Assembly: GCA_006384855.1 (NCBI GenBank)
Contig: VCJN01001088.1
Location: forward strand, 1-64,000
Direction of reading: 5' to 3'
Source of the DNA: Tetraselmis striata
Lineage: Eukaryota > Chlorophyta > Chlorodendrophyceae > Chlorodendrales > Chlorodendraceae
DNA: 64,000 nucleotides
In this document: piece by piece, positions 12,598 through 47,688 of the stretch
How the letters are laid out: every line of letters starts with the position of its first letter
How positions within the stretch are numbered: the first letter of the stretch is position 1
The notes under the pieces: generated by a model
What the model was told of the DNA's origin: nothing
Seen by the model: the letters and a program-made list of their open reading frames with translations, nothing else
Databases searched by the model: none
Translations under genes and position numbers: made by a program

Positions 12598-13336
12598 ATG
12601 GCCTACGCACCCAGCAACCCCCTCGCCTGCCGCCCGCTCGGCCGAGCCGCACTGTCCGCTCATGGGCGGGCGGGACGCCCCGCCACGGTCCGCGCCCGCG
12701 CCGTGAGGGACGACTGGCGCAGCAAGGCCTCGCCTATTAAGCCGGGCAGCACCTACCCCGCCAAGGAGTTTTGTAGCCAGTGCGGCCTCTGCGACACCTA
12801 CTACGTCGCGCACGTCAAGGACGCCTGCGCCTTCCTGGGCGACGGTGCGCGCTGCTCAGACGAGAGCATTCCGGCTGGTTGGGGCCGCGCCGGCGATGTT
12901 GCAGCGTGGGATGGGAGAGTGGGTGCAGCTTGCGGGTGGGGTGTCGGGAGTGTCGCTCGGGCGCCCAGTAGCTACACGGGGAGTGGCACCGCCGAGACGG
13001 CCTCCAGTTTGGGGCCTGGGATATCTTCTCGTGGGTGGGGTGCGTGCCTGGAGCGCTGAAGCGGATGGATGGGCCGTCAGGGTTGAGCACCGGCTGTTGT
13101 TTGTCAGCTGGGATGGGGCTGTGAAGGGGGCACGTCGCAGTTCCGCGACGGGCCACCTCGATTGTGACACCCGCATATGCTCAAACGTCTCGAACGGGTG
13201 TGGCTGGCAGGCATGTCTAGAATCGAGGCGCTGGAGGAGCAGGTGCATGGCAGGTCCAGGTGGGGGCCCGCCTGATGCCTCTGCTTCTCCCACCAGCATG
13301 ACGGCAGGGGAGGCAGCCACTACAGGCATGACATGT

Positions 13337-13368
<32 letters not shown>

Positions 13369-23551: not shown

Positions 23552-26500
23552 TCACATAGCTGTCTCCTCAAAGTCATTGCCATCATCCCAACGAAAGGAC
23601 GCACTGCGTCCAGGAGCTGTGCCGGGTCTCTGCTCCATTGGGTTGACGATCGTTGACTTCTTGCTGCCCGAGTGGCGCGGAGTAGCCTGATACCGGTGGT
23701 GGGCAGGGGACCCGCCTGGCCAAGTACCTTCCGCGTCCACCGGGCCCGCCAAGCGCCCTAGCTGCGCGTTCACGGTGTCCTCAGGCAGCAGGGGGTCGCC
23801 CTCAGCCCCATCGTCGCCCAGGTTCTGGAAAGGGGCAGTCTCGGCGGCTTGTCCCCGGCTGTATCCGGCGCGCAACGCGCCCTCACCCCAGTTCTTGGAC
23901 GGGTGTACGCTGGGCGCCGTCACGGGCCGGAACTGCTCTCTAATCAGAAGCAAGGAGGATTGGCTCACGAGCCGCTTGGGCGCAATCCGGCCACTGTCCG
24001 ATCTGTCCCTTCCAAAGGCAAGATGCTCAAGCTCGTCGTTAGCCCTATTCTCCGGCAGCTCCAGGCTTGTCCAGCTGGGCTCCAGGGCGCTATCCGGAGG
24101 TGTAGGGCCATGCCTTGCGGGCTGGGGCGCCAGGCCGTGGGATGGCACCTCTGAGCTTGTGGCGCTCCGCACGGGAATGCCAGTGCCTGTGTCACGGGTC
24201 CTCAGGCGGCTGCCGGACCTAGCATCCGCAGCACCGGCATCAGTGTTGACCTTGGCCGCGCCGTGTATAAAAATGGGCGCCGGCATGCCACCGGCCGTTG
24301 GACAGGTAGAGCATTCCGGGATGCCAAGCTCCTGTATTCCCGGGCTGCTCGCCGAGCGGCTCATTAGGTTAAGCCGGGACAGGGATGCGCGGGCGAGGCG
24401 GGCTGGCAGGGGCCGGGGCGGAATCATGTCTGCGGGTGCCGGCATATGCAGCGGAGCATCCCGAGATGGTTCCCCGTCTCCGGTGGGCGGGGTGGGTTCG
24501 AGGTTGCCCCTCCCGTCCACCCCGCTGCCCAGATCTGTCCATGTGATGCTGCGCCTGGGCCTGCCGGTGCCTGCGTCCCTGGCTGTGCGATGCCGGCCTT
24601 GCCCGTTGACATAGCCGTCTGAGTGCTGACCGGGTGCGCCGGGCAGTGGGGGGCCGTGCGCGCCGAAGCGCCGGACGAGGCCGTGAAGAACGCCAGACAT
24701 CTTGGCAATGTCGCGCTGCCACACCTGCAGGGCACGCAGCTGCCCCATGGCCAGCTGGGTATGCCGCTCCACAGCCCGTATGGCGGCATGAAACGGAGCT
24801 GAAGAGATATACTTGGCCGAGTCCTGGTATGGGCCAGACAGGTTGGCGGCCACCTGTGCGGGACACATCACTTCAGCCACGTTGCCGATTACGCGCAGCA
24901 GCCACTTTGCTTATGCTTAAAGGAGGCGTTTTCAGTGGTGCACACAATTGCGAAAATTTTCCCGCAGAAACTCGTCACCCGTACGTAATGAACATTTGTA
25001 TTTGATTCTATATCGCGCGGCTGCACCGGCCTGGCGCGCATCTCCGGACGGATCCTCTCCGTAGCATGATGGTCGGAAGCTTGAGCTGTGAATACACTAT
25101 GTGCTTCCCATATCGAGGTTAGAGATAGCAAGCTCTAACAGCAACTCAGTTTGGGCAAGTGGATGCAGCGACTAGCACGCTGAAATAAATTTCGATTCCC
25201 CAAAGAACCCTTAGCATGTGGGCAGGCATCAACATGCACGACCGCGGACTTGGACTCAACATGGTGACTTGGGCGGGCAGCCCCCAAAACCCCGGCTACC
25301 TCGGGGTCCAGCATGTGTTTGGCCGCCTTGGCGCCGTGCGCTCAACCTGCGTTGACCGGGTTCAGCGCTGTACTCCGAGTCATGCTGTGTATAGGACGGA
25401 CGGATCATCGCATCGGATTGGACCGTGGACCGACATGGTACGATAAATCATTACTTATAGTATTATCGTACATACCACATAAATGGACTACCCGTACTGA
25501 CGTGGCATGAGTGCGGGTAAAACTCCGAGAATTAATTTGCTTGGTGATACCAAAAATGATGAAAATCAGGACGATACGCATCCGGACAGACGCAGATGCA
25601 GCACAGATTTCGTAGACGAATAGTTACAGCATCGGATACCTATCAACGGATTCCATGCGGATCGGCCCATTGCATTTTAGGTTTGGCCGATGTGGATCTC
25701 AGCACTTTACGTGTAGTTGATCGCACCGGGGGCCAATTTCGGCCACTCCAGATAAAGGGAGAAGGCAACGTGATGGTATCGTTAGCGACTATACATCGGT
25801 ACCCATTCCTTTATTGCTATCTGTTTTGAAACAATATACGTAAATGTTCCCTGAAAATGGGCAATACCCAATAAAACAATGTCCTTAATGCTCTCTGAAA
25901 TCGATTCGCAATGCGAGTACTCGTACATGTACCGGTAAGATGTGTCACTTTCTTTTCAAGAAAATCCAAAGTCTCATCAGAATTGCCTTTCCATCCTTTC
26001 TCTTCTTCTACAATAGTCGCAAGTTGCCAAACTTCCATATTTCAACAGACTGGTGCTGTCGAGTGTCGAATCAGTGCTCGATATGGCGATATGTAACAGC
26101 ACATTGTGATAGTCGCTACGCGATGGCGCGGCGATGACCGTCGGCATTCTTCCCTGCCATCGCAGGACCGACGGCCAACACTGTGGGGGCAGACACTCGG
26201 AAGAGCAGTCTGGAGCAGCAGAGATGCAGGTTGCCCGTGCAATTGGGGTTGCGGCGAGAGAGGTAGTGATGGTCACCTCAGCGGCATTGGGCTGGCCGTT
26301 GTGCAGGATATCCGTCGTAGCGTCCGCGCCCAGCGTGCGCAGCAGGGTCGCCGCAATCGTTTGCACGCTGGCCTCCCGACCCTCGCCGTCCAGGTTGCTC
26401 TCGGGGTCAGCCGGGCGCCATCGCATGGAAAGCGCGGAGGGGAGGCGCACCGACAGGCGCGATCGCAGCTGCCGGCCGCGCCCCTCGCCGGGGAGACCAG

Positions 26501-26819
26501 CGCCCGACGCGGCGCCCCCGCTGCGATAGCCTGTACCGGCGAGCCTCTTGAAGCTCTGGGCCAGGCCAGCTGACAGCCTGGAGATGCCCCGCTCGGGCGG
26601 ATTCCGGCGGCCGCTGGCAAGGCGCCCCAGATTGCCGGTAGAGTTCCGTCGACACGCGGGCGCATGGCGACCTCCGGCGCCGGCATCACAGGCTGCTGCC
26701 CCGGCAGACGCGGCTGAGTGGTCGCCGAGCTCTCTCCGGCTGGCTTGCCGGGCAAACGAGCGTTCAAATCCGGTGCCCTGCGACCGCGATCGCGACTCCT
26801 TGAGGTAAAACTCCAGGTC
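23552..26819 (-). CDS. Coiled-coil/low-complexity protein segment; possible polycystin C-terminal tail
   Basis: Two phase-0 exons: 26819-26277 (after a CCCTTCAG acceptor) and 24853-23552 (after CCCGCACAG, stop at 23552). They join GQPNAAE to VAANLSGPYQDSAKY and give about 614 residues. Exon 1 opens with DLEFYLKES and is Arg/Ser/Gly-rich. Exon 2 has a likely coiled coil (FHAAIRAVERHTQLAMGQLR and on to HGLVRRFG) and then a disordered Ser/Pro/Gly tail. There is no start codon, so an upstream exon is required. The polycystin gene ends just upstream on the same strand, and this would suit its cytoplasmic tail. However, the only phase-matched donor I see there is a weak GC donor at 27400. It may be a separate gene with a missed first exon. 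Confidence 0.5.
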
Positions 26820-27360: not shown

Positions 27361-30300
27361 CTAAGACCACTGAGGTGAGTTAAGCCCTGATGACATGGCC
27401 TGTCCAAACTTGGCGGCCATCAGCAGGGCATTTAGTTTATTGCGTGGGCCGGGGCTGGCGTCGGTGTCCGCAAAAACGGCATCTGCCTCCTCCTCCAGAC
27501 GCCGCTCCTCGGCCACGTACGCCAGCAGCTGGGCGATGACGTCCCGGCGCACCCCCCGTCCCGTCATGCGCAGCCGCGCGTCCAGCAGCAGCTCCGCCAG
27601 CTGAGTGGGGATGCCCGGCAAGTCGCTCATGCTGGTCTTGCCAGGCTCCTCGTCACTCTGCGTCAACAGGATACGAACGATGTCAGGGAACTACACAGCC
27701 ACAAGCGACGTGGAATTCGAGTGAGCTTTCTAGTGACATTGAGGCAAGCGTGTTATCGAGCGGCCTTTCTGCATGGCTCTCGATGAAGGGGATGAGGCGA
27801 CAAGCGCGAGATGCGGTTGATTTGATCTCAGAAGCCAAAGACTCCTTCCCAAGAGCATCGGGCGGTCGATCACACGATTCCCTCTTTTGAGGAGGACCTA
27901 GCAGGCGCGGAAACGGGGGGAACAACACCCCGCAAGGGCGCGCAGGAGAGACAGACAAAGGGGCGAATATCCATACTTAACGGGGTTGAAAGGCCGATTT
28001 AAGGCACCGGCTCTGTAAGGATATAATGTGAACGTCAGAGTCCCTGCCAGTAACGGCGCAACGCCGCCGCACCAAGATGCCCGTGAGGCGCATGTAGGCG
28101 TGGCGCCCACCTGGATGAAGTGCTGTGGGGTGAAGCCAAACAGGGCCACCATGAACGTTGGGATGACGATGATGACGAGCAGCATGAGTGAGACGTAGTA
28201 CACTATCTGCAGGAGGCGCACGATAGGTAGCGTCTCCCTCGCATGAGTGAAGGCTGCGGCGTGCACTCCACCCAAGTCGCCACCGCCTGCGATTATGGCA
28301 CACGGAAGCATGGGCCTTACAGCTCCGCGGCGCAACTGGCTGGGGGGGAGGGTGTCTGGGGAACATGCTGGCCTGCACAGGATGACAGCGGCGGCGTCCA
28401 ACGGACTTTCAAAAGATGTGACAACCAACGCATGAAGACAGGTGCCTCACCCGAAACAAAGGCGTCCACCAGCTGGTGCAGTGCGCCCCTGGAACGTGGA
28501 GAAGGGCCCGTACACGTCCCCCAGCAGCATGTGCCCCCACGCGGTGTACATGAAGATGCAGCACGCTGAGGTGAGCAGCAGGGCCAGCAGGTCGCCCGCC
28601 ACTGCCGCGAGGTTGGCCGTCAGAAAGGTGACGCGCGGCTGCCAGGACCAGCTGCCAATGAGGGCGCCGATGGAGAGCATGAGCGCCATGCCCGTCAGCG
28701 AGGTGAACGCGTCACGCTGCAGCGCAAGAGCGCGCAGCTCCTGCAGGTCGCTGGCCATTGCCTGTTGCGCGGCGGGGCAATCGCATACGTCCGTCTCACC
28801 CGGCTGACAATGCCAGCAGCGCCACAGGTACCTGAGCAGCGGATCGATGCTGCGCCCAGCGGACAAAACACAAATCGCGGATTGCCTGGGGCTCTAAATG
28901 GTGCACGGAAGCCGGAGACGAACCGCGAAGAAAGCGACAAGAGAAATGGGGGGGGGGGGGGGGTGGGGTGGGGGGGGAGCCCGAGTCTGCAACGGTGGAG
29001 GAGGGGCTTGGAAGCACCGGAGAAAGGCCGGTAGCCTGAGCAGCAATACACCTTGTGTTTCCCATAGCGGTGAGAGATGGCAGGTCCTAAGAGCGTCCCA
29101 GTCCGGGCAGGGGAGAGCACCGGACTAGCGTGTTGCAACAAATTTCAATTTTGCAGAATGTCATCCACAGCAGAGCGCCATGCATCGGCCATGCAGGTGG
29201 CGGCAGCAGGCAGACCTGCAGGCCGGTCATGTTGGAGTCCAGGCGCCAGCGCTCTGGGCAACCGGGGCACGTGGCGCCTGCAATGGCCTCCACGCCTTCG
29301 GCACTCTGCCAGCAGAATTCCACTCGTTGTGACTAAGGCATTCAGGGCAGAGCCGCAAGCCACGGGTGGCAGCTGCCTCCCTGGCTAGGGGAGCGCGCTG
29401 TTGGGGGGGGGACGGGGGGGGAGGGCACTGCAGGGCAAGGGTAGGCATCCGGCGCACCTTTTTGGGCAGGAAGTAGCGAACAGGGGCGAACGCGGCGGCG
29501 TCATACACCTGCCGGGCGGCGAGCGGTGGGGCAGCAGGAATGAGCTCCAACTCCGGCTGGGCATGCCGGACCCATGTGGCCCAGCCAGGGAGCGAATGGA
29601 GCCGTGGGGCAATACGACATCGCCGCCCATGCTTAACTCGCGTGACTCGCGGTTGACAGGTTCATGAGGGACAAACGCACACCCGGACATGCACGTGCGC
29701 ATGTGTGAACCCCCAGTTCATAGGAAGCCCGACCCTGTGGGCCACGGCAGCGAGGAGAGAGTGGCAGCAAGTGCTGCTAGGCAGGCGAGCAGGGCGCATG
29801 GCGCCGCACCCTGTATGCAAGCCGTGGCTCGGCCGCGAGTCCGCCAGACAGGGAGACCACCGCCAGGGCGGCACAGGCAGAGAAGATGGCGCCCATGGAC
29901 AGGAAGGTGAATGACACCGCCGGCCGCCCGTGTTGCGCTGAGGAGGGGCCCGCCTGCGGCGCACCAGTTCTCTGTGAGGCGGCGCAGCTAGTGGTGATGC
30001 GGAGCGCGAGATGGGGCCCCGAATCGGGCATCACGTGGCTGTGCCCCCCACTCCCCCCTCTCCCCCCCCCCCCCCCCCCCCCCAAGCCACCCACACTTGG
30101 GCGCTACGTTGCCGTTTCCCGGACCCCGCAGCGTTGCGCAGGACTAAACAGAGCCCTGGGGAGAATACAACAGAAAGAACCGGAATGCAATAGAAATGGA
30201 AAACCGATAGAAGGGTCGTGGCATATTAAGACGGCCAGGCCCTGCCGTTTAACATTGTTTGTCACCTACGCGGTAGTATATAAAATGATGACACATGCGT

Positions 30301-33300
30301 TCGGGATATATATAGCGCAATGATTATGTAATCTACTATGCACAAAGACATGTATCTGTTATCTCTCAGATGCACGGGGCAGAGCTGGGGCGCACCTCAT
30401 CACCGTTGGGGTCATCCCCGAAGACTGAGCCTCTGGGGGTGGATGCGGCGATGCTGGCGCGCGAGGATGGCGCGCGGCTGGGGGCTCTGCGGAAGCTGTG
30501 CCTGCCGCTGGGCAGGCCGGCCAGAGTCGCCTCCGAGTGCATGCTGGCCCGCCGGAGCCGCAGCCAAAGGCGCAGGCGCTCAGTCGCCCGCGCCAGCGCA
30601 CGGCGGAGGGGCGCCACCGCCCCACCCTGCAAGCCACCATCGCAACCGGTAAGAGACGGTAAATATCGGTCGATCCACGGCGCCACCTGACAGCACACGC
30701 CAAATGCCACTCAGCTCCACCCTGGCACCCCGGCACTTCCCACCGGTGCAGTCTTCCGGCACTCGCATCCGGGGGGATCTGCATTGCACTAGGGGGGTCT
30801 GCATTGAACCAAAGACGCCAGACATCATGCGACTAAATACACATGCCGGTAAATGCGTATGCACGGTACATGTACTTGTTTGCAACGGCTACCTGTAGCC
30901 ACGTACGACAAGTACCCGTGGTATACCCGTGGTAAATTGGCACGAGTAGTTGCTATATAATTGTGTACCCATACCAATTGATCGATCGCGACATCCTGCT
31001 GCATGGACCGCGCTCTACGCGGGCTGATTTGGAGTTACTGTACGCGTACACGGATGTAGTGGCTACTTCACTTTGTCGCCCCTGGCACAGAACTGGCAAC
31101 AGTGAAACCCGTGCAGGGTCTCTACGACGGCTGCTTGGGCTGCGATCGAGAAGCACCGAGTATGTGACGCTGGCGTCGATGCTATGACCTTGCGACGTTT
31201 CTATACAATTTTACCGGTGACCGCTCCTCTTGAAGCCAAAGCAGGAATACAGAGCTCTGCGTGGTATGTACTTCTGCTAGGTCACATGGATGGGTGTCGA
31301 CAGTGTACCTGGACCAGAAAAACGGCGGCGGACACGGCAAGGAAGATGGCTGTGACCACCGCGTGCACCGGCAGGGCGCGCCTATCCAGGGACGGAATCG
31401 TCTCCAGCTGGGCAATCTTGTATCTGCGCAACACGTTGGGGGGTCGCGTGCAGTGCAAGTCAATATGGGCACTGGCAACCGAGCGGTAGTAAAGACAAGG
31501 GCACCATTGTGACAAGTACGAGTACGATATACTGCGGGTTAGTACAAGTATGCTGCGTACGAGCAATAGAACAATGTGTGCCTGAGACTACCGAGTATAT
31601 GTGCGAGATAATGCGCTGCCGTGTGACAAGCATTGTGCTTTCGATGCGAATGTCGCCTCGATTGCTACACTGGTTTCGGAGCGGTATACTACAAGTGCCA
31701 AAAATGATCCAAAAGCGATCCAAGTAGTGGTATGAGGCGGATCCGTTGTCATGACGACCCCATTTCAGCCCCTTTAATTATGAGGATATGCCGGACGCGG
31801 CGGAGACACTTGATAGTGTACACACCCCACCTTTTCTGCCATCGCTTCTATGAGCGTGAGTGCTCAAAAGCTGAATGATGACACACTTGACGAAATGAAA
31901 TCAGGGTATGCAGCAGATGACTACTCCGAAAGTCGGGACATATGTCCAAACATGATGACGGATTTACGAGGGACATAAAATTCTGTGTAATCCGAATAAC
32001 CGTCAGCTCATTGACAAAACATTGTATGAGCTGCATGATACCACTGGGCATAGTCTTGTACCTTGGTCCTAAGAGTACTTTGGCCCGTGCCTGGTTTTGG
32101 AGCAGTATACTATCAGGCACACCCATAAGGAAAATGGCGAGTAAGGTGTGGTGGCGGTATGGCAACTAGATGAATGGCTGGGGATTTTGGGGGGGGGGGG
32201 GGGGGGGGGGGGGGCACACCTTATGGAGCCGTCTAAGGCTTGGCTGTAAAGAGCACGCACGTATGCAAACAGCTCCAACCGCGGGTTAAAGGACAGCGAC
32301 TCAAAACTGAGATCCTGCGGGGTACATTCCATTGCCATGCTCAGCCCCCCCCCCCCCCCCCCCCCCCCACCGCGCCCGCGCTTCTCAATGATGAATAAAA
32401 ACATGGAAGTTATAAACGAAAAATCGCGTGCCTCTGAGCGGGGGCTGAGGTTGGCGCCGCTTACCCGGGAGCGAATGTCCCAAAAGCCGCCGTCCCTCAT
32501 CGCCTGGACAACCTGGTCTGCGCGCTCCGCGGGGACGCCACTCTCCACCACCTGGAATTGGGCGGGATGGGGGGGGCAAGCACAATAACACAGCGGGCCG
32601 CTTGTCACTGATCACGGCACTGCCATAGGGCAGCAGGTCTTGGTTAACATACAGTCAAAATGTAGTGGCTCCAAAACCACGCCGCGTCCCTGCCTCGTGT
32701 AGGGCAAACATGAACCCTGTACCCTGCTGTATGTACGGCGCATCGGATCGATATGTTGACGAGCACATTAATGCAGCCGCAGAACAGGAGCCGGAGCTCC
32801 TAATTTTCCGACAACTCGGCGGCCACAGAGCCCCTATATGGTTTCGGAGCACGCCTCCCTGTCTGCGGCTGCACGCTTGGGGGTGCTCATGTCGGGTTTG
32901 TCAGGGTTTTAGGGATTTGGACGCACAAGCCCGACCAGACCATCTGCCACCCGCACCATAGCATGTTGCCATGCGCCGTGACGTCCTCGACAATTTACGA
33001 CCCAGGAAAAGGCCTAGTCTGGCGGGAGCGGGGCTCACCAGGGGGAAGCCATCCGGCGTGCCAGGCAGGCGGGCGGAGAACCAGCCGTAGGGGTTGCCAA
33101 ACAAGTTGACCTCCGGGTCGCGGTCGCCGGCCCGCTCACCCAGCACGCCCGCGCTCAGGTTGTAGTAGCGCCCCTCCAGCCCCTGCCCGCAGCCGCAGCT
33201 CGCGCAGTCAGCGGCCGGCAGGGTGGAAGGAAGGCACCCGTGCGAGCCGCCTAAGGCAGGCCGCGGCCGCCGCACCTTGAGGCGCCAGTTGTAGAGCTCA

Positions 33301-36300
33301 GAGGACAGCATGAAGGCGGGGTCGCGGCCGTAGGGGTGCAGCGGCTCGGCCTGCAGCGCGGCGCAGCGGCAGCAGCGGTCAGCAGCCAGTCCGCTGCCGG
33401 GGCGCTCCACCTCAATTTAAAAGGATGGTGCGGACGGTGCTCCGCACAAGCCGCTACACAGGAGCGAAGGACAATACCCATGCGGCAATTCGCTTTATTT
33501 TAACATTTCATCTCCTTTTGTCTTATTCAAATAGTATTCGATTATTTCTATTTCTTTCTGTGTTTCTTTTCTGTTATAATCATTTCTTAAAAAACTCTCA
33601 GGCAGCAGCGTCGCTTGTCATCCCCGGGGGGAGGGGGGGGGGGGGGGGGGGGGGGCACACCTCTGCAAGTAGCTGCTGGACGTAGCCGCCCTCCTCTTGA
33701 CTGCCACTCTGACCGGCGAGGGCCGTGGCCAGCGTGTTGCAGGCGGACATGAACTGGGAAAAGCGGCGCCCGCCCAGTGGCAAGATAGCGCCGCCACCTC
33801 TCTTTGCCTGCGGCGGCAAACAGCAGGCTGACGCGCTGAGCGAAATGGACACGCGGGATGAGGACGGTGCGTGCAAAGCGGAGAGGGCGAGGTCCGATTG
33901 GAGAGGGAGTGGGGGGCGAGCAAGGATCCCTTGGAGATACAAAATGGCAACAAATGTGCAGTTCACATGACAAAGAATGTATGGTAAGAGATGGCTGCCA
34001 CGGGCCTCAGCGATCAGCGATATAATGATATACCATAGCCAAGTTTTGGGCTTGCGGTATATCATCATCGTTTTGCCCCCCCCCCTCCCCCACCCCCCGC
34101 CCCGCAAAAAGAAAAAACAATTATGCGGAAGTAGCTCAACAATTAGCGCAGAAATAGCTCAGAAAACAAATTCCACACCGGTCTTTCGAGTCATTGCGGC
34201 AAAGCAGATTGTTTGTTGGACCCGCAAACCCAATCAAATGTTACGGTACATTGGTATACACACATACAGACATAAATACGTCAATTTCACGCCATTTCCA
34301 GTACACCTGGGGGATGTTGTCAGCTGTGTGTAGAATTCATATATAAATATATACATGTAAAAATATATATACTATATACTATGCCGCAGATGCAGCTCCA
34401 CTATGCAGGGCGCTTGGCGGCCGGGGCGTCTCACTCATACAGGGGGTGGCAGTGACGGAATTGTAGCGGGTGGGTGGATTGGTGAAGGAATTGGGGGGGG
34501 GGGGGGGGGGTGGGGGGGGGGCTGCCTCACCGCCAAGCTGGGGAGTGCATCCTCACAGGCGGCATAGTCCGTCCTCTGACGCGTCATGTGCAGCTTCACA
34601 CCGCCCAGCAGGACGTTGGAGCCCGAGGCCGCGTCGTACCATCGCGGGCGGGGGGCAGCGTCTCCTGCGCAGCACGCCAACGTCAACGCGCGACAGAGGG
34701 GGCGACAGACCACTCCGCGCGGCAGTCACAGGAGGTCCGCACAGGTACCGGTACCGACGCAACTACAACAACCTTGTTGTACGCCACAAAGTAGGCTTGC
34801 ATGCAACCCATAAGAGCATTCGCTACGATTCCGCTACAGTTTTGTCTGCGTTTGACCTCTGGTAGGCAGGGCGGGTTCTTATTTGCGGTGTTATGATGTT
34901 ACCGCGCCGGCACTCGCACAACAACAGCGCCGCAAAACAAGGATCGCAATAGCTGCAGACTGGCAAAGAGGCTCTTGCCCATGCTCGTCACAACCCAGCC
35001 AACGGGGACTGCCCCCACGGTGAATGGACACAAGTACGCGTGGCACAGCAGGACACTGCGATGAATTGTTCGGCACGTCAACATCGCGCCGGGCGGGATC
35101 CCCGTGGCACAGCTTGACACGGCTGCGAGCGCGCACCTTACCCCGCGCCACGGCATGCGCCGTCCCAAGCACATACCCGTTCCATGACTCCCCGGGTGCA
35201 GCCCCTGTCACAGCGTCTCCTGCGCTCTTGCCGATGACGTCCACCTCCGGCGTCGCGGATGACTGCAGAAGCACGCGCCGGCCGGCTTGGCTCGGCGGGG
35301 TGGACGGCGGCGGGCCTTCCGTGGTGAACTGCACCACGTACCGCCTCTGTGCGCCGCCCAGCACACACCGTCAGCGAGGGCACCCTCCCAAGCATGCATG
35401 GCAGGGTCGAATTTAGTATTGAAAATAGAACCGAGATTTCTCTTTTGAAAGTAGAAAAGGAAAAAGTTTGTAGTAGAACTACAAATGCCGCAGAAATAAC
35501 TCGGCATCGCAATCCTGGAAACATATTGATGCAGGACATTGGTCGATTCTTGGAAAGTAAACAGGCACATTCACCGAAATGGTGAAAAGGCAAGTTTTTT
35601 TAAATAGTGTGCGAGATGGCTTGGGGGGGGGGGGGGGGGGGGTATTCCAGTTGATTTCTGCGTAGGGGATATCTATATTTAGGAAGGCGCAGTTTAATTT
35701 CCAGGAAATGTCGACCCTATTTCCAAATTAAGTACTGTTCTGCCATTGCAGGCCTGAAAAAAGTGGCGGCGGCGGTGGGGGTGGCGCATGTGCGTGTGAT
35801 GGAGGGGGGGAGGGTCATACGTGGGCGTTGGGCACGGTGAAGATGGGGTGATTGTACGGCAGGGGAGATGCTGACTCTGCGGCGCTCTCAAAGTCGGCGT
35901 TGCCGGGCACACCGGACTGGGCGGCTCGCTCCAGCGCCAGCAGCACGGATCCCTGCGCATGAAGGGTGTGTGCCAACAGCAAGGGGGGGGGGAAGGGGTT
36001 CAGGGTCGTGTGGAGGATGGGGGTGCGCAGAGGGATGCTGCCATTGCCACTGCCACTGCCATATGGCAGCCGGGTGTGGGGTGGGGGTGGGTGGGTGGGG
36101 GGGGGGGTCTAGGACTATACATACACCTACACACATTTATATATACATGCAATTACACATACAATTACACCTAGACTTATCCATATACATATGCATATAT
36201 CGATACATACACATACACATACACATGTGCATATACATGTTTAGTGAAACATGGAAGTCCAGGGCTGGGCTCGGCAAAGCCCTTACGTGGGAAAACCCCA

Positions 36301-39300
36301 TCCTGTCAATGGCGTCGCCGAGGTTGGACAGCTGGCCCGGTGAGCGCTGCAGCCAGCCAGGCGGCAGCAGCTCGCGCAGGGCCTCGACCAAAGTGGCCTC
36401 CGTGCTGCCCACCGCGCTGCTCACGCCCAGCAGGGCCTGCAGCACCGCCAGGGCCTCCACCTCTACGTCCTCCGGCGGCAGCTGCAGCGCCCCCATCTCC
36501 GCGCTGCCCATCAGCCGGACCAGCCGCTCCCCCAGTGAGCCCAGCTCCAACTCCAGCGCCTCCACGCTGGCGGTGAGCGACGCATACCGGCCTCCCTTCA
36601 GGTCCAGCGGCGGGGATTTCTCCCCCGGCTCCATTGCCGCCGCCGCTGCCTGACATCATACCGCACGCACAATCACCGGGCGGCACCTCCCCCTCAGAGC
36701 CCACCGCAGCGCCACGCCACGCTAAGCCTTATTTCCGTTATCTTTCGATTGTCCTTCCCTTACGAATACACCGGAGCTCAACAATCGCCCGCGGCCATTC
36801 CTTGCAATTGGCCCACGCGCAACACCAGTTTGCCCTTCCGGAGCGCAGTGCACAGCCATGTGCAGCGTCGGCGGATCTGCCGTAAGCGGCCCCCCAAACA
36901 GCAACAACAACACTCCCTGACTGGCCATTTCTGCAAGTGGTACAGAGGCATTCAGAAAAAAGCGGACTGGAGGCTGCTGCCATCGTCGCCATGGACTTCA
37001 GGGCTCAGCAAAGATACATAAATATAGACAGGATACCATCATGGGTTGCCCTCTTCCCCAAACGGATGCCGTCGATCCTCACGCTGGCCACCGAGGCGGA
37101 CCCGCACCTCCCAGTTCACGGCGCCCCGCAGCGGCGACCCCGGCGGCAGGAGCTCAGCCAGCGCAGCCGGCCGCAGCGCCGCCAGCTCCTCCAGGGCCGC
37201 TGCGGCAGCCGCCCGCGCAGCGCCGCCGTGCCCCTCCCACAGCAGGGAGGCGGAGGACAGCTCCAGCCGCAGCGCCATCTGCAGCAACCCACCGCCTTCG
37301 CCGGGCGCCGTGGCCTCCACCACAGCATAGGCCAGCACGTCCGGCAGCAGTGCCAGGACCGCGGCCGGGATCGCTTCTGCCAGCCCAGCCGTGGGGTCGT
37401 ACGACTGGCCGTCCGCTGTCGGTAGCAGCGGCAGCCGCAGCCGCAGCTGCGCCACGGCGCGCCACTCCACTGTGACGGTGCGCACCGCCCACGCAACGGC
37501 CGCCATCTCATCCGCGGAGCGCAGCGTGTAGTTGTAGGTGTACGCGGCCGGCAGGCACCACGGCGGGCCAGCGCCCATCGCTGCTGGGGAGCAGCGCGGC
37601 TGCCCATCCGCCGGCACCTCCGTCACCTGAGGGCAGCCAGTCCACCCGCGGACATCAGTGAAGGGGGGGGGGCAGCCAGCGCGCCTGAGGCAAGGGTCCT
37701 CATGTGCTGGACATGAGGCACTCCTCAGCTCACCCACCCCACCCCATATAGACGGGGGGCGGGAGCTATCGTAACCCAAATTGCCCTTAAATTGATTATT
37801 TTGTTGGGTTTTTGCTGTCGTGTTTTGCTGTGCAATATTTCTTCTTTGTTGTTGTCGCTTTTTCATTTTCTTCTTGTTTATGTTCCCTTGTTATGCTCTG
37901 CTGCTTGTCCTTAGACCTCCTGCGCCCCGACGCAGCGACAGGCCCCCATGACATCCCATGCAGAGTGCGCGTGGCGGCCAGCCTTGCCTGTATGCGATCG
38001 GAGGCCAGTGCGCGCCGGCTGCCATCCGCCGCGACCGCCCAGGCGGCAGCCCAGCAGCGGAGCATAGGCACACACTGCCTTCATCGCACGGCGCCTCGCC
38101 ATCGGCGTCCGGGGCGGGCAGCGGCGAGCCGTACTCCAGCGTCATTGCTGCGGGATCGCTGCCCGCCCCAGGGAAGGGCAGCAGCTCCAGGACAGCCTCC
38201 GCCGAGTCTTCCGCCGTTACGGCGGTACCCAGATCTGCCAGAAGCGCTGTGCGCAATGCGCAGTCCACGGGCGAGCACACTATACCATCGCCGCAGTCGT
38301 GCAGTCCCGCGGCGGCGCACGAGGCGGGGTCCTCCACCACCACTATGGTGCGTGTGACGGAGGTGGGCGTGGCGGAGCTGCCGTCCAGTGGCAGCAGCGC
38401 AAACTGGATGACATGGATTGTGCCAACCGGTGCGGAGGTGTCGATGCCGCAGCCCTGGCACAAGTGGTGTAGGTTGGGGAGGATGGGGCATTGGATTTAG
38501 GAGCACGGTGACAAGGGGGCTGAACTTCAACTCATACTATTTAGGGGCATGGTTTAGGAGACATTTCGGAGCAAAAAATGTAAATTTGTAAGTACCTAAA
38601 TTGTAGTTTCAGAAGTTTCAAATTTTGAATGGGGGCCATTCTGGAAGATATGGTTTAGGAGCCATTTAGCCGCATGGTTTAGGAGGCGTTTCAGAGCATA
38701 TGGTTTCGGGTTCATTTCAAAGCAGGCAGTATAGGAGCCCTTAATGAGCATGCATTTTATGAGCCATTTCAGAGCATGTGATTAAGGAGCCATTTCAACT
38801 CGACCCATTTAGGAGTACGTATGGTTTCGGAGCCATTTTAAGAGCACATAGTGTAGGCGCACGGTTCAGGAGCCATTTAGGCGCATGCGCTTTAGGAGCC
38901 ATTTAAGAGGATATGGTTTAGCCGCATGGTTTAGGCTCAATTTAGGAGCGTACGGTTTTGGAGCCATTTAGGAGCGTATGCTTTAGGCTTCATTTAGTGG
39001 CATATGATATAGGAGCCAGTTAAGAGCATACAGTATATAGGAGCCATTTCAGAGCATGTAGTTTAGGAGCCATTTCAGAGCATGTGGTTAAGAAGCCATT
39101 TACGGGATCGTTTAGGCGCATGGTTAGGAGCCATTTAGAAGCATGCGCTTTAGGAGCCACTTAAGGGGATATGGTTTTGCCGCATGGTTTAGGATCTATT
39201 AATTTAGGAGGATGGTTTTGGAGCAAGGTGACACAAGAGAGCGGTTCATAATAGGACTCGGGACATCCAGGTGGGCATGCGGAAGGGGTAGGCTACCCGC

Positions 39301-42300
39301 AAGCCGTGCGATGCAAAGCGGTAGGTGTCGCAGGCGCCGGGCTCCGCACACGCCTCGGCGACACTCAGCTCCGCCGGCAGGGCCAGCACCGCCGCGGTGA
39401 GGTCCTCCCCCGCGGGTCCCACGGCGGTGGCACCCGCGTCGCAGAAGGAGAGGTCACCGTCGGTGCAGGCAACATAGAGGCGATTCTGAAGGGCGGGCCG
39501 CAAAGGGAGTGTAGGCGCACACACACACACACACACACATATCAATCAGCGCATGGGAGGACGGTCACGGGGAGCTGGTGGGGCGGAATAGCTTGCTCTG
39601 CTTGGCAGTACCTGCGGCACCTCAATTGCGGGCGGTCCAACCAGCGCGATGGCAATGGCGCCTTCATCGCCGGTGAGCGAGGTCAGCGGGGTCAGGGACC
39701 CGAGGTCGCTGGCACAGATGCCGCTCTGTGAGCAGGGCAGCTCGGGGTCCGACGCGCAGGCGTGCTCGCCAGGTGGGCAGTCGGGAAGGACGAGCACGGT
39801 GCGCGTTATGCTAGCAGCCGGGCCTGATGGCACTGCGGGGTCGGAGACCTGCGTGTGAGAGCGCACAGTGCGGATGAGGCGTAGGGATCGAAAAGATCGC
39901 TGTAGGAGTAAAGTGAGCGGCTGATTTGAGGGTGGTGAAAGCCGGCATGCATGGCCAAGTGCCGTCGTCCAGGGGGCGGGGTATTCTCTTGCGGACAGAC
40001 GCAGTGTATTATGAGCATCTGTTGCCAAGGCGCGGTCGTACGGCAGACCGGGATTGGCTGGGGTGTGTACCTGGTAGTGGATGGTGTAGGCCCCGCGGAC
40101 GGTGGTGTCAATGCTGCAGGGCGCCAGGCCCACGCCGACGAGAAGGTTGCCGCCCTCCAGCGGGTTATCTGGGCACACCTGTCGACGCAGCGGGCATCGA
40201 GATTTGCGTCAGCAGCGGACTTTGCGCTGCAGCAAGCGGATGCCTGCTCGCCGCCAGTGCCGTCATTTCCACCCCCGACCCCCCCCCCCCCTCCCTCTTC
40301 AGAGCACCGCGGGCCTGGTGGGCCAGGGACACAGACCTGCACATGGCTGGAGAGGTCGCCGCTGACGGCACTGCTTGCCATGACACCAGCTTCGCAGGCC
40401 GATGCGTCCATCATGGGCAGCGGGCACAGCCCATAGCCAGACCCCATCGACAGCCTCACAATACTGGGGCCGATAAGCTCCAAGTGCAATGAGGACACCA
40501 AAGCGCCGGCCCGCTCATCCACATAGTTGCCGTTGGCGCGTTCAAACTCCGCGCCCACAGGCTCCAGCGACGGCAGGGCGCAGCTGCCTCCCAGGCTGCA
40601 CGCAAGGCCAGCTCCATCCTCGCCGCCCCCCTCGCAGACACGCTCCTCAGGCGGGCAGCTGACATAGATGAGACGAGCGGCCACGGTGCGCTGTACGCCC
40701 GCCAGCACCGCGACCGTGTACTTGATCACGTAGGGGCGGCCCTCCGGCGTGGGCTCCGCCGAGCTCCACAGGCCGGGCGAGAAGAAGCGTTCGACGCGCG
40801 CCATGGCGTCCTCCCCGTGGACGGTTACGTCAACGCCTGGGTAGCGGCACATGGTGACATGAACCGGGCGGTCAGCGGTGAAGCAGCGCCTGCACATCAC
40901 ATCCTTAAGAATGCCCCGCCCCTTTGCATGCAGAGCGCTGCGCTCACAGGCCGGAGTTCCCCGACGGGGCACGCCGGGTGAGCAGCCAACGCCGCCACAG
41001 GGGTCGTTGGCGCGTTACAAGCCGTGGGCCGGGCCGTCCCACCTGGGTCCTGGAACGGCGTCCCCACGGTGATGTGGTGAACTTGGGCGGGGACGTTGAC
41101 GCCCGGCAACACGCCCACCTCGCAGGACGGCGGGTGACACTCGCCCAGCAGCAGCGCCACCGGCAGAATGCTCCCGGAGTCTGCCAGCTCCACCAGCGGC
41201 GCTTGCGCCCGCGACTGCTCACCGCCGAGCCCGAGCGCCAGGGCCAGAAGCTCGGGGGGGCACAGCGTGCGGCTCACCATGGCGCAGCGCTCGCTCAGCC
41301 GCATGCACAGCGCGTCCCCGTCCGCGCACGGGCTGATCACGACCACCTGCACCAGGCGCGAGCATCGGCTCAGCCAAGGCAGCATCCACGGTGGTGAGGG
41401 TGCAGGGACGTGCCTCAGAACCCCACACAATATCACCCTCCTCATCGCGGGGCGGCGATGCGGTGTGTGGGCGGCATTCATGGCACTGGTCCTCCGGGCG
41501 TATGCCTTGCGCTGGAACAGCTCATATTTATTATGTGGGGAGGGCTCTGGGGGTTGCAGGGAATGGTTGCGGCCGGGCGCAACGGACTGGCTGGTGATGG
41601 CCTCTTGCTCATACCTCCCGGGTGGCGGTGGCGGTGTTGCCAGCGCTGTCGGTTGCCACATAGGTGATGAGCTGCCCCTGCGGAGGGACCCGGCGCGAGC
41701 ATGCCGGCCAGCTCAGCGCAGTCCAGCGAGCAGGGTAGGGTAAGGCGCCCTTCGTTGCTGCCACTAGCACACGAGTGATGGGGGGGGGGGGGGGGGGGGG
41801 GGTGCAGCGCACGCACCGGCTGGCCTGGCGCTGTCAGCTTCCACGTGTCCACCGCCTCTAGCCCAGTGACTGAGACGGGCAGAGCGCCGTCCACTGCATC
41901 CTCTGCATACGCACCTGCGAGCAGTAGAAGCGCCGCGTGCTCATTGCTCATTCAATCTCGTGCAAGGGGGGGGGGGGGGGGGGGGGCGGGGGCGCACTGC
42001 TCAGCGTCGGGAAATGGGGGCGGGGGTTGGGGGAGTAGCTGCCCAGCGCGGTACCTGGGTCAACGAAGGGCTCAAACTGCGGCACTGCCGTGCGGGGCCG
42101 CCCGCGCAGGCGGAGCACCGGGGGCGTAGCGTCGAGCGGCGCATCCGCCGATGGCGCCCCTCCAGGCAGCAGGAACGCCAGCACCGACGGCGCCAGGTGT
42201 TGCAGCAGCAGGGGGCTGGAGGTGGGTGCGGATGGCATGGGAGGGCCGGGAGGAGGGGGGTAAGGAGGCGGTGACGCGGGCGGCTCGAGCTGGGACCCTG

Positions 42301-45300
42301 ACGTGGGGCTGTGGGCAAGAGGCCGCGGTGTTAGCTCGGCGAGGCGTACAATGCACCCCCCCCCCCCCCCCCCCGCCGGGCCCCCGCAATGCCCGGCAAG
42401 TGGCAGGCGTGCTTCAGCGAAGAGGCATGGTCGAGTCGCGGCTTCACCTCGGAGGGCTTGATGCGGGCGTTGGCTCCGGTGCGGGCGTGGCGGAGGGCGC
42501 AGGAGGAAGTGTGGCGCCGTCCGCAGGCGTGGGCGGGGGTGGGCCCGGGGGCTGGGCTGCGGGGTTGATTGGGGGCGGTGGCGCCGGAGCCAGCGTTGGC
42601 GCGCTTGGCGTTCGCTGCGGCTGCGGCGTGGCGGTCTCCATCGGCGGCGCTGGTTGTGGTGGTGGGGGTGGGGGTGGAGGCTGACCTGTGCTTGCTGGGG
42701 TTGGGGGAGGCGGAAGAGTGGGGGTGGGGGATGGGGGGTCCGGTAGGGGGGGGACGGAGGGGGGAGGACTGCGTGGCTGGAGGCGTGGCGGACTGCGGAT
42801 GAAGGGCCATGGCAAGAGCGTTAGTTTGTGAATGGCGCCGCAGAGCCAAGATAAGCCTTCAAGGAAGGAGCCGTTGGTGAGGGGTCAGTCCTCACCTCGG
42901 GGGCAGAGGCCCGGGAGGGGGTGGCGTTGTAGGACTTGCAGGGGGCTGGTCGGTTGGAACTGGGGGCATCGGGGCGGCGGCTGGGAGGGCTGGCCGGGGT
43001 GGGCTGGGCGGAGCGCCTGGGCCCGGGGGGCTGAGCGGCTGGCTTCCAGGGGGAGGGGAGGGACTGGGCGGCGGGCTGCATGTGCACACAGCGATGCCAA
43101 TCAGTGCACGCAAGGAGCGGCAGCAGTATGTGGCGCACGGTGCCGGCCCTTTTGGGATGGCGCATGCCCGGAGCTAGATGGAGGGTCCTCAGGGGCACGC
43201 GGTGATTCACCGCTGTGCGGTCCGGGACGCGAGTCCGGACCATCGAGAGCCGTTTAGCGGAGGATGCGGGCAGGGGCGCTTGGAGGTGGGGAGAGCTCAT
43301 CACAGCACACCTGGGAAAGGGCGGGGACGGCGCGGAGGGTCCAGGCGGCGGCGATGGAGGCAGGGGGCTCTGTGGCAAGCTGCCGATGCAACACAACGCA
43401 GATGGGGTGAGAGCGCTGGTGCTGTCCCAGAGTACCGCCAATCAGCCGCAGGCACAAGCGCATTCCTCAGGCCGGCGACGCATTACCTCGGGGAGGACGG
43501 AGGAGGGGGTGGCGACTGCGGCGGTGGGCTCGATGGCGGGCTGCGTTCGATGAGTTGGATGTCAATCAGTACACGCAAGGAGCGGCAGCAGTATGTGGCG
43601 CACGGTGCCGGCCCTTTTGGGATGGCGCATGCCCGGAGCTAGATGGAGGGTCCTCAGGGGCACGCGGTGATTCACCGCTGTGCGGTCCGGGACGCGAGTC
43701 CGGACCATCGAGAGCCGTTTAGCGGAGGATGCGGGCAGGGGCGCTTGGAGGTGGGGAGAGCTCATCACAGCACACCTGGGAAAGGGCGGGGACGGCGCGG
43801 AGGGTCCAGGCGGCGGCGATGGAGGCAGGGGGCTCTGTGGCAAGCTGCCGATGCAACACAACGCAGATGGGGTGAGAGCGCTGGTGCTGTCCCAGAGTAC
43901 CGCCAATCAGCCGCAGGCACAAGCGCATTCCTCAGGCCGGCGACGCATTACCTCGGGGAGGACGGAGGAGGGGGTGGCGACTGCGGCGGTGGGCTCGATG
44001 GCGGGCTGCGTTCGATGAGTTGGATGTCAATCAGTACACGCAAGGAGCGGCAGCAGTATGTGGCGCACGGTGCCGGCCCTTTTGGGATGGCGCATGCCCA
44101 GAACTAGATGGGGGGTCCTCAGTGGCACGCGGTGATTCACCGCTGTGAGGTCCGGGACGCGAGTCCGGACCATCGAAAGCCGTTTATCGGAGGATGTGAG
44201 CAGGGGTGATTGGAGGCGGGGAGACCTCATCACAGCGTACCTGGGAAAGGGCGGGGACGGCGTGGAGGGTCCAGGCGGCGGCGATGGTGGTGGGGGGCTC
44301 GATGGCGGGCTGCGTTGGATGCACAGAACAACATTGAGCACGAAGCAGCGGGCGGGATTGCCCGGCGCTCTGCAGAAAGCTGCCAGCACAGTCTCTGCAG
44401 TCGTGTACAACCCACCTTGGAGGCGACGGCAGTGGGGATCCGGGAGGCGGGCTGCAAGACAATCAAACAGTGTATCAGGTCCTGTGGCAGATGGTAAGTG
44501 CAGCATGGCACGGCGTGCAGAGGTCATTGCGCAGGCTGGCAGATAGGCAAAGGCCAGCAACAACACTGCGCGAGTGCTCTTCCGCTGCACTGCATCTGAC
44601 GTACCTTGGAGGTGGGCTTGGAGGTGGCGATGGCAGAGGGGCGCTGGCCGGGGAGATGCGGGGGGGGGGGGGGGGGGGGGGGACTGATTATGATTTGTTG
44701 AACTGTTGGCTATGGGAATCGGAGCTGCCACGCATCAGGCCGGTCTGGCCAAGGCCCACTGACTGCCAGCAAACAGCACCCACCTTGGAGAGGGAGGGCT
44801 TGGCGGTGGGGCGGGGGGACTCGCCGGAGATGGCGGAGGTGGCGGACTGAAAATGCGCGGGAGGGGGCAAATGTACAGACTCAGCACATCAGCAACATGT
44901 CGGAGCACCTCGGATGTCGCCAATATGATAAAGTGTCGACATCATGCAGAGTGATTGAAGAAGGGTGTTGGCACCGGTCTCAGGCAGCCAACTGGAAATG
45001 GGAGGGATGTTGAGGTGGTCGTGCCAGGGCCGGCACTACAAGCCTACCTCACAGGTGGCGGGCTGGGTGGTGGCGGGCTGGGGGGTGGGCTGGATGGAGG
45101 AGGGCTTGGTGGCGGACTGCCGGTGCCGATGCGCGCACAAGGCCCTGTCAGAAGTCTACAGACGATGTGGAATGTGCAAGGCTTGTGGTACTGCGTCACT
45201 CCCGCGCAGCCTCAGTTGCACCGAGGGTCTCCATGCATACTGTGGGTGCGGGCCTACCTGGGGGGAGGAGGGCTCGGCGGAGGCGAGGGCGGAGGCGGGC

Positions 45301-47688
45301 TTGGTGGCGGGCTGCATTTGGCCAATTGTTTCGCGGCGCACAGCTCTACGTAAGTCCTCCTCCGCCAGGGCAATGGCACCGTTGCAGGCTGCCACACCAT
45401 CGGCGCATTTGGTAATCGCGCGCTAGCCCTCCTGCCACGCTGTGAATGTGGGCGTACCTGGGAGGTGGAGGGCTGGGCGGAGGGCTAGGCGGAGGGCTAG
45501 GCGGAGGGGGGCTTGGCGGCGGGCTGTACATGCACAGTCTGTTTTCAGAATTCGGCCCACCCGTTGCAGCTGCGCCGTCGTTCACGCGGGGCTGCTGGTC
45601 CATGCAGGCATGCGCTTGGTCACACAGGGGCTCTTTGGGGCCGCTGAGGGTGTGGGGTCACCTGGGAGGTGGCGGGCTGGGTGGAGGGCTGGGTGGAGGA
45701 GAAGACGGAGGGGGGCTCGGTGGCGGACTGCGGTTCCGCAATGGGCGCATGCGAGATTGCCGGTGAGACCCCAGCTGACAACCCACCGCAGGAGCTGTGC
45801 AACAAACACCCTTTCTGGGACACTGGTGGCATTGCTTACCTGGGAGGTGGCGGGCTGGGTGGAGGGCTGGGTGGAGGCGAGGGCGGAGGGGGGCTCGGTG
45901 GTGGGCTGCGGTTCCGCAATGGGCGCATGCGAGATTGCCGGTGAGACCCCAGCTGACAACCCACCGCAGGAGCTATGCAACAAACACCCTTTCTGGGACA
46001 CTGGTGGCATTGCTTACCTGGGAGGTGGCAGGCTGGGTGGAGGGCTGGGCGGAGGCGAGGGCGGCGGGGGGCTCGGTGGTGGGCTGCAGGTGCAGGATGG
46101 GATCGGAAACAGCAGGTGAGTCACTCCGGTCACTCCTCCATGAAGGAGCCATGCTGCGGGATGTGGTGCACTGCCCCGCCAGAGCATACGCCGTCTCACG
46201 GTCCGGGAACGGCACAGGGACGCTGAGAGTGGTGGCCTACCTGGGAGGGGGAGGGCTTGGTGGGGGACTGGGTGGAGGGGGGCTCGGGGGCGGGCTAGGC
46301 GGAGGGGGGCTTGGCGGCGGACTGCGGATCCACAGTGCACGAGTTCAGTTCAGTTGCTCTTCCTCCCATTTGCTATACATCGCCAAGTTGTGGTAGGCTG
46401 GTTCATCCTGGGATTGTCTGCACTGCGATAGGCATGGCCTGGCAAATGGTGCTCCGGAAAGGGGCGTACCTGGGGGGAGGTGGACTTGGTGGGGGTGAGG
46501 GCGGGGGCAGGGGCGGGGGTGGAGAAGGTGGAGGTGAGGGTGGTGGACTGGGCGGCGGCACGAGGGCGTCCACCGTGCCCCCGGTGCCGCTCGCAGCCTC
46601 GGATCCGTCCACGGCACTGTAGAGCGTGGCGGTAAGGCCTAGGGTGTTGACGTGCCAGTAAATACACCACGACGTGACCTGACACAGCGTGCATGCGCCG
46701 GCGGTCCCCACCACCGCCGAGGTGAGCGTCGTCGCGCCTGCCGCCGGTACCCATCTCTGCCCTGGATACTGAGAACACGTCTGAAGCAGCTGCCTCCGCG
46801 ACGAGCGATCCCACGTTACAAGCTCCTGTGACCGTGGGGAATGATTAGTGCTAGGATGAGAGTTGCCCCTTATATGTATAATCCCAGGCAGAAGGGAACC
46901 AGCAATTGCTCCAGTAATTTACCGGACATATCTTAGGAACCACCCCCTCCACCATGAGCCCCCTGCCCGCTGCCAACCAGCTCGCAGGCGGGGGAAGGGT
47001 GCCCACTGTTACAGCGAGCGGCTACATGCCTGCAGCTCTAGTGACTGCCTGAAGCGGCCAGGGCGCAATACGCGGGTACGAGGAATCGCTAGAAGGCGAG
47101 AGAGCGGCCCTGAACGACAGCGCACTGCCCGACCGATACACTGATACAGGGTATACAATTCTCAACGCCCGAGCCTCGGAGAACGCCGGCAATACGGTGC
47201 GAGTGCAATGGGCGCCTAGGATTATCGAGTGCAGGGGGTGGCGAAACCTGCTGCGTTTCCAGTTCAGAAACTGGATCGAACCGCCTGCCAGCCGTGCTGC
47301 TGAAGTGCTCCCAGGGCGGCTGTTGAACTGCCGCGCTCAGACCTGCGGTGCAGGGAATGGGAGCGGCGTCTGGCAGCCCGTCTCGGGTCGTCAACATCCC
47401 GGCATAGAGCTCGTCTGCGTCCGCGTCCGCATCCTTGGTTCGGGGCGGTATGTCCCGTGAGTCCCATTGAGCGACGCAACACATTGCCACTGACATGATG
47501 AAGGCCACCCTCGCTCCGACCCGGACTCCAGCTGAAGCGGCATGCCTGCGGGCGGTATCCCTGCTACGTGTGTTCCGTACGCCGCCGCGTACGGTAGGCA
47601 ATGCCGCAACTCGGTGCACCGCGACGGTGCAGCCCAGGGGCACGGCCAAGTCCATATCTGTCCCGTCATTGTACAGAGCGCCCGTCAT
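27361..47688 (-). CDS. Giant polycystin/TRP-type cation channel with proline-rod and Ig-like ectodomain
   Basis: About 46 exons, ~2,500 residues; ATG at 47688 proposed, stop 27361. Order: exon 1 (47688-47248) with a weak signal-anchor; Cys-rich exon (46828-46470) entering the SPPP rod; 17 symmetric rod exons (46321-42448); Ig-like DUF5011/HYR-type region (42215-42055, 41914-41817, 41677-41615 with YVATDSAGNTATATR, 41346-41043, 40836-40337, 40178-40071, 39848-39612, 39485-39297, 38454 to ~38070); 37626-37083, 36645-36287, 35952-35821, 35346-35232 of unknown fold. Polycystin ectodomain: 34664-34531 (NVLLGGVKLH), 33753-33661, 33410-33276, 33182-33039 (NPYGWFSARLPGTPDGFPL), 32551-32465, 32314-32220. 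Membrane part: 31423-31309, 30626-30396 (cytosolic loop), 29971-29810, 29508-29458, 29305-29216, 28761-28451 (S4-S5, GPFSTFQG), 28253-28111 (S6), 27657-27361. Likely a cell-surface or ciliary Ca2+-permeable channel tethered to the wall. Two homopolymers are one base out of frame (44660-44682, 28486-28489). S1 was not found. The end of the 38.4-kb exon is uncertain. Confidence 0.8.
31090..31150 (+). repeat. Dispersed repeat copy C (partial)
   Basis: GGCAACAGTGAAACCC and GTCTCTACGACGGC match copy A at 47965-48060. It lies in an intron of the polycystin gene. Confidence 0.5.
38540..39225. repeat. Degenerate tandem array, ~28-bp unit
   Basis: About two dozen units of the type GGAGCCATTTAGGAGCAT then RYGGTTTA, variably diverged, filling the intron between the exons at 39485-39297 and 38454. 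AT-richer than its surroundings; no coding signal. Confidence 0.85.
43094..44310. repeat. 465-bp tandem duplication, two near-identical copies plus a diverged third
   Basis: Copies at about 43104-43568 and 43569-44033 look identical over nearly their whole length. A third partial copy (44034 to ~44305) has many substitutions. Each full unit carries two rod exons (54 and 69 bp) with their introns, adding 41 codons. Confidence 0.9.
44660..44682. repeat. 23-base G tract inside a coding exon
   Basis: On the minus strand it encodes polyproline in rod exon 44683-44605. The frame before and after agrees only if the run is 22 (or 22 plus a multiple of 3), so the count is probably off by one. Confidence 0.7.
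45662..46083. repeat. 178-bp exon-plus-intron unit, three in a row
   Basis: Rod exons of 66 bp start exactly 178 bp apart (45727, 45905, 46083). The intervening intron TTCCGCAATGGGCGCATGCG and on through CTTTCTGGGACACTGGTGGC is almost identical between the two intervals. Confidence 0.9.

Follow-up and report, generated by a model that had tools for sequence, protein, structure and literature searches.

The analysed window, 64,000 nucleotides of Tetraselmis striata DNA, carries on its minus strand a multi-exon gene in which a Ser-Pro rod and DUF5011-like modules precede an S2-S6 core of polycystin type. Our hand-checked model of this gene has 45 exons (46825-27361) and a product of 2460 residues, with one one-base break read through. 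The product consists, in order, of a Ser-Pro rod, a DUF5011-type Ig domain, four Cys-rich/Ig-like repeats, a linker, a segment that weakly matches the polycystin ectodomain (TOP) and helices S2-S6. There is no convincing S1, and polycystin homology in S4-S6 is distant. The fusion that an earlier note had read at this locus, of a rod and an Ig-like ectodomain to a polycystin S2-S6 channel, is supported.

Exon chain and gene model

The minus strand between 47.9 and 27.3 kb was read in three frames, a small splice-aware coding model was then applied, and the outcome was checked by hand; the exons are predictions made without transcripts. All 44 introns of the hand model are bounded by GT-AG, the kind of site at which the boundaries were placed. 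The hand and automatic models disagree at six places, namely the first acceptor and the exons near 41.9, 38.4, 33.3, 29.5 and 28.8 kb. The coding/splice model scores 758 on the minus strand against 76 on the other strand, and 20 order-1 Markov resamples reached at most 9.0; because the model was trained on the same region, only the size of this gap is meaningful. From the hand model together with the score gap, we conclude that the exon chain is real. The earlier note had counted about 46 exons, all in phase, between 47.7 and 27.4 kb. The multi-exon chain stands, with 45 exons joined by GT-AG introns and a single frame break in the pore, and the span could be modelled from 46825 to 27361; the stretch 47688-47095 has a near-zero coding score (0.3) and no clear coding signal.

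The first firm exon (46470-46825, minus strand) encodes a head of about 88 residues that contains Cys and Trp, has no Pfam match and shares one open frame with the Ser-Pro rod that follows. We picked the acceptor of this exon, at 46825, by eye; the automatic model takes 46761. Upstream, the region 46826-47688 on the same strand offers candidate first exons with an ATG at 47688 or 47655, as well as a short hydrophobic stretch, seen by eye, that is a candidate signal sequence; no signal peptide could be fixed at the 5′ end. Long C-runs lie just after the donor in at least three introns (32189-32214, 33626-33655 and 34493-34521; G-runs on the plus strand), and such homopolymers may favour assembly errors.

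The Ser-Pro rod

The rod occupies 42448-46547 (minus strand), comprising the end of exon 1 and 17 further exons, and corresponds to protein residues 89-638, the last 38 of which lie in the following exon. Pro accounts for 330 and Ser for 104 of its 550 residues, and the longest Pro run is 8. Within residues 89-638, a Ser is followed by two or more Pro 68 times, and SPPPP occurs 18 times; these are the repeated Ser-Pro(3-4) motifs that define hydroxyproline-rich glycoproteins (HRGPs) of the extensin type. Volvocine and plant HRGPs of this type, and the pherophorins, carry Ser-Pro(3-4) motifs as the rod does, and theirs are not fused to a channel. A second open frame through the rod (PTTEPP..., the choice of the first model) was rejected because the SPPP frame stays open all the way from exon 1 to the exon with DUF5011.

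Rod exons 2-18 all have lengths divisible by three and are all entered in phase 2 (17 of 17 in both respects), so duplication or loss of any one of them would leave the reading frame intact. Two tandem repeats fall within this region. One, with a 465-bp unit, spans 43093-44322; its 300-nt core occurs three times, two copies being 99% and 89% identical to the reference copy, and the repeat carries rod exons together with their introns. The other is a 178-bp duplication at 45660-46015 that comprises one rod exon and its intron, in two copies that are 97% identical. Both duplications of rod exons are recent. Frame-neutral micro-exons combined with recent tandem duplication offer a testable route for the evolution of rod length.

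A polyproline II helix rises 0.31 nm per residue. The rod may perhaps form a poly(hydroxy)proline II helix outside the cell, some 100-170 nm long (105-170 nm if it is wholly such a helix), and it is presumably hydroxylated and glycosylated.

Ig-like ectodomain and linker

The rod is followed by an Ig-like domain at 41338-42112 (minus strand) that matches the Pfam profile PF16403, formerly DUF5011. The domain is spread over four exons (42308-42055, 41914-41817, 41677-41615 and 41346-41043). The protein scores 62.9 bits against a cut-off of 27 (E 3e-17), and its best stretch takes in positions 2-71 of the 71-position profile. This match runs over three spliced introns and so supports those splices.

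What appear to be four tandem repeats of 143-164 residues each, Cys-rich and Ig-like, come next (37462-41337, minus strand, bounds including introns). Each begins with a Cys-rich portion; when they are aligned, 9 columns are invariant, and the later repeats are 24-32% identical to the first. A minisatellite (38654-39101) whose repeat unit measures about 26 bp lies inside an 842-base intron of the gene (39296-38455). The linker that leads to the TOP segment (34665-37461, minus strand) comprises the rest of exon 37626-37108 and then exons 36649-36287, 35952-35821 and 35346-35142; no Pfam family reaches its cut-off there, and none of its stretches is backed as a transmembrane segment by both of the hydropathy scales that we used. 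A search of the Ig part and linker against the PDB gave no match at E values up to 0.1, and the Ig part and two pieces of the channel found nothing in NCBIfam. Two single exons folded alone, without relatives, gave mean pLDDT values of 50.9 and 37.1 and no usable model.

Channel core and polycystin homology

Hydropathy places S2 at 31312-31368 (exon 31423-31309) and S3 at 29849-29905 (exon 29953-29810), both on the minus strand. An exon at 28451-28893, the acceptor of which is approximate, encodes S4 (28710-28654), S5 (28611-28555) and the start of the pore helix, and the end of the pore loop and S6 (28194-28138) follow at 28111-28286. The one break of the gene model lies in the first of these two exons, where the pore loses its frame through one extra base in a G-run (28489-28486); the uncorrected frame meets a stop after residue 2363, about 70 residues beyond the break. 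The automatic model instead bypasses the break with a 61-base ‘intron’, which would delete a segment ending in FSTFQ. We rejected this intron. With it, the score of a PKD2/PKD2L1 profile, made from the PKD2L1 and PKD2 pieces in PDB alignments, is only 2.2 bits, compared with 17.1 without it. The better reading is therefore a break, either of the assembly or of the gene itself.

On S4-S6, the same profile scores 17.1 bits with read-through and 13.3 bits for the uncorrected frame, which ends early. The maxima among shuffled sequences were 10.2 (3000 block shuffles) and 11.3 (3000 full shuffles), and none of the 6000 reached the real score. The Pfam family PKD_channel matches S4-S6 with an E value of 0.004 and 17.0 bits, under its cut-off of 22.4, and Ion_trans is second (E 0.015); for the whole 742-residue channel part, the PKD_channel E value is 0.058, and S4-S6 reversed, or its two halves taken separately, found nothing in Pfam. 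Against the PDB, PKD2L1 was the sole match of the whole channel part at E values up to 1 (0.44 and 0.47). With S4-S6 as the query, PKD2L1 appeared with E values of 0.22 and 0.52, and an endoglucanase, which is unrelated, with 1.1. By these sequence comparisons, we judge the polycystin homology of the S4-S5-pore-S6 region to be real but distant, and best on the read-through frame.

The segment upstream of S2 (32220-34664, minus strand) was assigned to TOP from the motif NVLLGGVKL, recognized by eye, and from a weak, collinear match to the PKD2/PKD2L1 profile. It comprises exons 34664-34531, 33807-33661, 33350-33276, 33182-33039, 32551-32465 and 32314-32220. The match is in the right place; its score was equalled by 29 and 23 of 3000 shuffles in the two sets for the full profile, and by 40 and 32 of 3000 for a profile of the C-terminal half of TOP. 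The segment had no match in Pfam, and alone against the PDB at E values up to 10 it found no polycystin, just a chance match at 0.65. A search of bacterial/archaeal and viral contigs confirmed no relatives of the TOP-S2 piece. We regard the TOP identity of the segment as suggestive. The earlier note had named three profiles by which its reading could be checked: the DUF5011 match is clear (62.9 versus 27 bits), the PKD_channel match stays below the cut-off (17.0 versus 22.4) and TOP is without a Pfam match.

It is at TOP that the chain could be divided into two neighbouring genes, one at about 47.7-34.6 kb for a secreted Ser-Pro/Ig protein of the wall or coat, and one starting near 33.75 kb for a polycystin-like channel. 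A Pro-aware codon model scores the split at 758.5 and the unsplit chain at 756.6, but two other model runs gave one gene, and coding statistics alone leave the choice undecided. The split would end the first gene with 22 residues that run out of frame over NVLLGGVKL, and the second would open with an ATG that lies within TOP and would have neither a signal sequence nor S1. By contrast, the junction of the one-gene model, 35142 to 34664, is GT-AG and in phase, and its layout is the one published for MST3 of Chlamydomonas and its kin (PMC11015965). We favour one gene and consider the two-gene reading improbable.

Gene integrity and the 3′ end

The last exon of the model (27361-27657, minus strand) encodes a cytosolic C terminus and ends at an in-frame TAG (27363-27361). 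Fifteen bases past this TAG stands a donor (27346) that joins in phase to an acceptor at 26819. The donor scores 5.82, where donors of the model span 2.08-8.43, and the acceptor 3.59, where those of the model span -0.32 to 8.75. Beyond the join lie two stretches (26819-26277 and 24853-23552, within 23552-26819 on the minus strand) that are in phase with the donor save for the TAG, free of stops, Ser/Arg-rich and without a Pfam family above cut-off. Their coding scores are 43.9 and 55.5; the part ahead of the first in-frame ATG is less clear, at 23.2 versus 17.7 for the best other frame. A model of the whole window also extends the gene into this downstream stretch, via a weaker donor. The region 26819-23552 could possibly be a further cytosolic tail of some 615 residues or a separate gene, or reflect an intron in the 3′ UTR.

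If the one-base break in the pore (28489-28486) and the early TAG, with in-phase, coding-like exons beyond it, were both real lesions, the locus would be a decaying pseudogene. The remaining exons, however, are open in one frame and have usable splice sites, and the break sits in a short homopolymer, a setting in which assembly errors are common. We consider the pseudogene reading improbable.

An apparent loss of S1

The spliced protein was scanned for helices at a Kyte-Doolittle threshold of 1.3 and on a second, biological insertion scale. Thirteen stretches reach 1.3 or more on the first scale. On the second, values typical of membrane helices (-2.5 to 1.3) are confined to S2, S3, S4, S5 and S6, and the stretches flagged upstream of TOP have values of 4.4 or more. 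The most hydrophobic of these upstream stretches, residues 1397-1415, reaches 2.07 on the Kyte-Doolittle scale, compared with 2.13 for S3 and 2.11 for S5, and the others reach 1.63. In the unspliced frames of 36700-34500, the second scale backs only 36198-36142. By these predictions, we found no convincing S1 helix before TOP in either the spliced protein or these unspliced frames, and the five extra transmembrane helices that precede the polycystin core in human polycystin-1 (PKD1) were not found in the scan.

A conventional polycystin has six helices, with S1 ahead of TOP; here, both scales back five. The exon model, which was predicted without transcripts, might have missed S1, or another helix might lie upstream of TOP, and the N terminus would then be cytosolic, as in a conventional polycystin. 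Residues 1397-1415, with their Kyte-Doolittle value of 2.07, and the strongly hydrophobic frame at 36198-36142 are the candidates for such a helix. The former contains Pro and Asp, scores 5.2 on the second scale and is separated by some 330 residues from the TOP motif downstream; the latter falls within a TG/TA-rich intron. Either helix would place the DUF5011, Cys-rich and Ser-Pro ectodomain in the cytosol. This reading seems to us very unlikely.

Given the 45-exon model, the predicted helix count is that of S2-S6 without S1, as in the MST3 kind of protein described below. With S1 missing and five helices remaining, the N-terminal rod and Ig-like ectodomain would lie outside the cell. The apparent loss of S1 is the key feature of the protein and would mark it as one of the polycystins that lack S1 and are predicted to be completed by SIP.

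Polycystins predicted to be completed by a second protein

The mastigonemes, or hairs, of Chlamydomonas cilia have as their axis MST3 (Cre06.g309951), a poly(hydroxyproline) protein that anchors them (Dai et al. 2024, PMC11015965). According to that paper, three elements of PKD2 are absent from its PKD-like domain, namely S1, the Ig-like domain and two helices of TOP; the part missing from MST3 is encoded by a small protein, SIP; and the loss of S1 is proposed to have turned the N terminus of MST3 outward. The same source gives seven further C. reinhardtii proteins with this layout. Poly(proline)-rich regions occur in all but one of them, and by the legend of its Figure S7 they have partial PKD2-like domains that SIP can complete in AlphaFold-Multimer. 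The paper reports MST3 and three of these seven proteins from cilia, in which the remaining four went undetected. In a second paper, SIP is reported in various green algae, including Trebouxia, Micromonas and Scenedesmus, and also in algae that are apparently unable to form cilia (Das et al. 2024, PMC10846610). Beyond these two mastigoneme papers, no title that we found names such proteins in other algae, a statement that covers titles only.

Compared by published description, the T. striata protein shares with MST3 a poly(proline) rod and large ectodomain (in T. striata predicted to be extracellular), Ig-like domains, a partial PKD domain without S1 and a cytosolic C terminus. That C terminus has 1,600 residues in MST3 and about 100 in the T. 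striata protein, perhaps with some 615 more. MST3 also differs in its length of 8,572 residues, its 42 P13...P11(XXP)3 repeats and its C-type lectin domains, whereas the T. striata rod is built of SPPP/SPPPP micro-exons, and Pfam finds no lectin domain in the parts scanned. The 2460 residues contain no P13 run and no P11(XXP)3, their longest Pro run being 8; judged by rod sequence, the gene is not an MST3 orthologue. With the seven other C. reinhardtii proteins, again by description only, it shares a large extracellular region, an incomplete PKD domain and, for all but one of them, poly(proline)-rich sequence; by the legend, they differ in having LRR, SRCR, SEA and small Cys-rich domains. Human PKD1 likewise bears a large extracellular N terminus on a polycystin subunit, each PKD1 being combined with three PKD2 (cited in PMC11015965). 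It reaches this topology by means of five extra helices, whereas the T. striata protein has five supported helices in all.

A proposed tethered subunit of a PKD2 channel

As the architecture is already in print for MST3 and the seven proteins, the gene is probably a further example of a recently found kind. What is added here is a probable further member with frame-neutral, recently duplicated rod exons, in which the missing S1 is the telling feature. Subunits of this kind have lost S1, which allows a large ectodomain to be attached to the channel itself and makes the fold dependent on a second protein for its completion.

We hold, with moderate confidence, that the gene encodes an S1-less subunit of the polycystin kind in the plasma or ciliary membrane, a tethered partner of PKD2 and SIP. 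The rod and Ig-like ectodomain would be extracellular and S2-S6 in the membrane, and a separate SIP-like protein would supply S1 and the TOP helices that, judged by eye, are missing. The completed subunit would then join PKD2 subunits, one to three of them in the published model (PMC11015965), and the protein probably functions as one component of a PKD2 heteromer, not as a channel on its own. In this arrangement, the rod would link a single cation channel with a glycoprotein layer outside the cell. We infer the SIP and PKD2 partners, the heteromer, the tethering and the transmission of force from the shared architecture; mechanosensing is a proposal of the mastigoneme literature (PMC11015965).

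The extracellular layer could equally be the wall, a ciliary hair or another coat. From the rod alone, tethering to the wall, as proposed in the earlier note, is possible. A rod that reaches into the glycoprotein layer of the cell wall, and not onto a cilium or a mastigoneme-like hair, is a tentative sub-case of our preferred explanation. An extensin-type SPPP/SPPPP rod without the P13...P11(XXP)3 repeats of MST3 speaks for it, as does the reported occurrence of SIP in algae apparently unable to form cilia (PMC10846610). MST3 and three of its seven relatives, by contrast, are in cilia, and this lowers the wall reading; four are undetected there (both according to PMC11015965). A more specific non-ciliary use appears unlikely to us: an S1-less, SIP-completed polycystin stitched into the wall of the alga by an extensin-type rod, a sensor of wall strain with a reach tuned by the number of duplicated rod exons. 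Should this species be without cilia or mastigonemes, the gene would raise the question of whether such subunits first served as tethers to coats or walls.

Other genes in the window

Searches of the 64,000-nt window for tRNAs and Rfam families gave no match. A gene at about 12598-15543 (plus strand) has FrhB/FdhB N- and C-terminal domains (E 4.4e-18 and 1.1e-19) and resembles 7-hydroxymethyl chlorophyll a reductase. At about 63238-58858 (minus strand) lies a BACK-Kelch protein (Kelch_1 E 3.9e-45, BACK E 2.8e-10). The gene at 55422-57916 (plus strand) encodes a fatty acid desaturase fused to cytochrome b5, with a QIEHH motif (FA_desaturase E 7.6e-29, Cyt-b5 E 6.9e-21), presumably of the front-end type.
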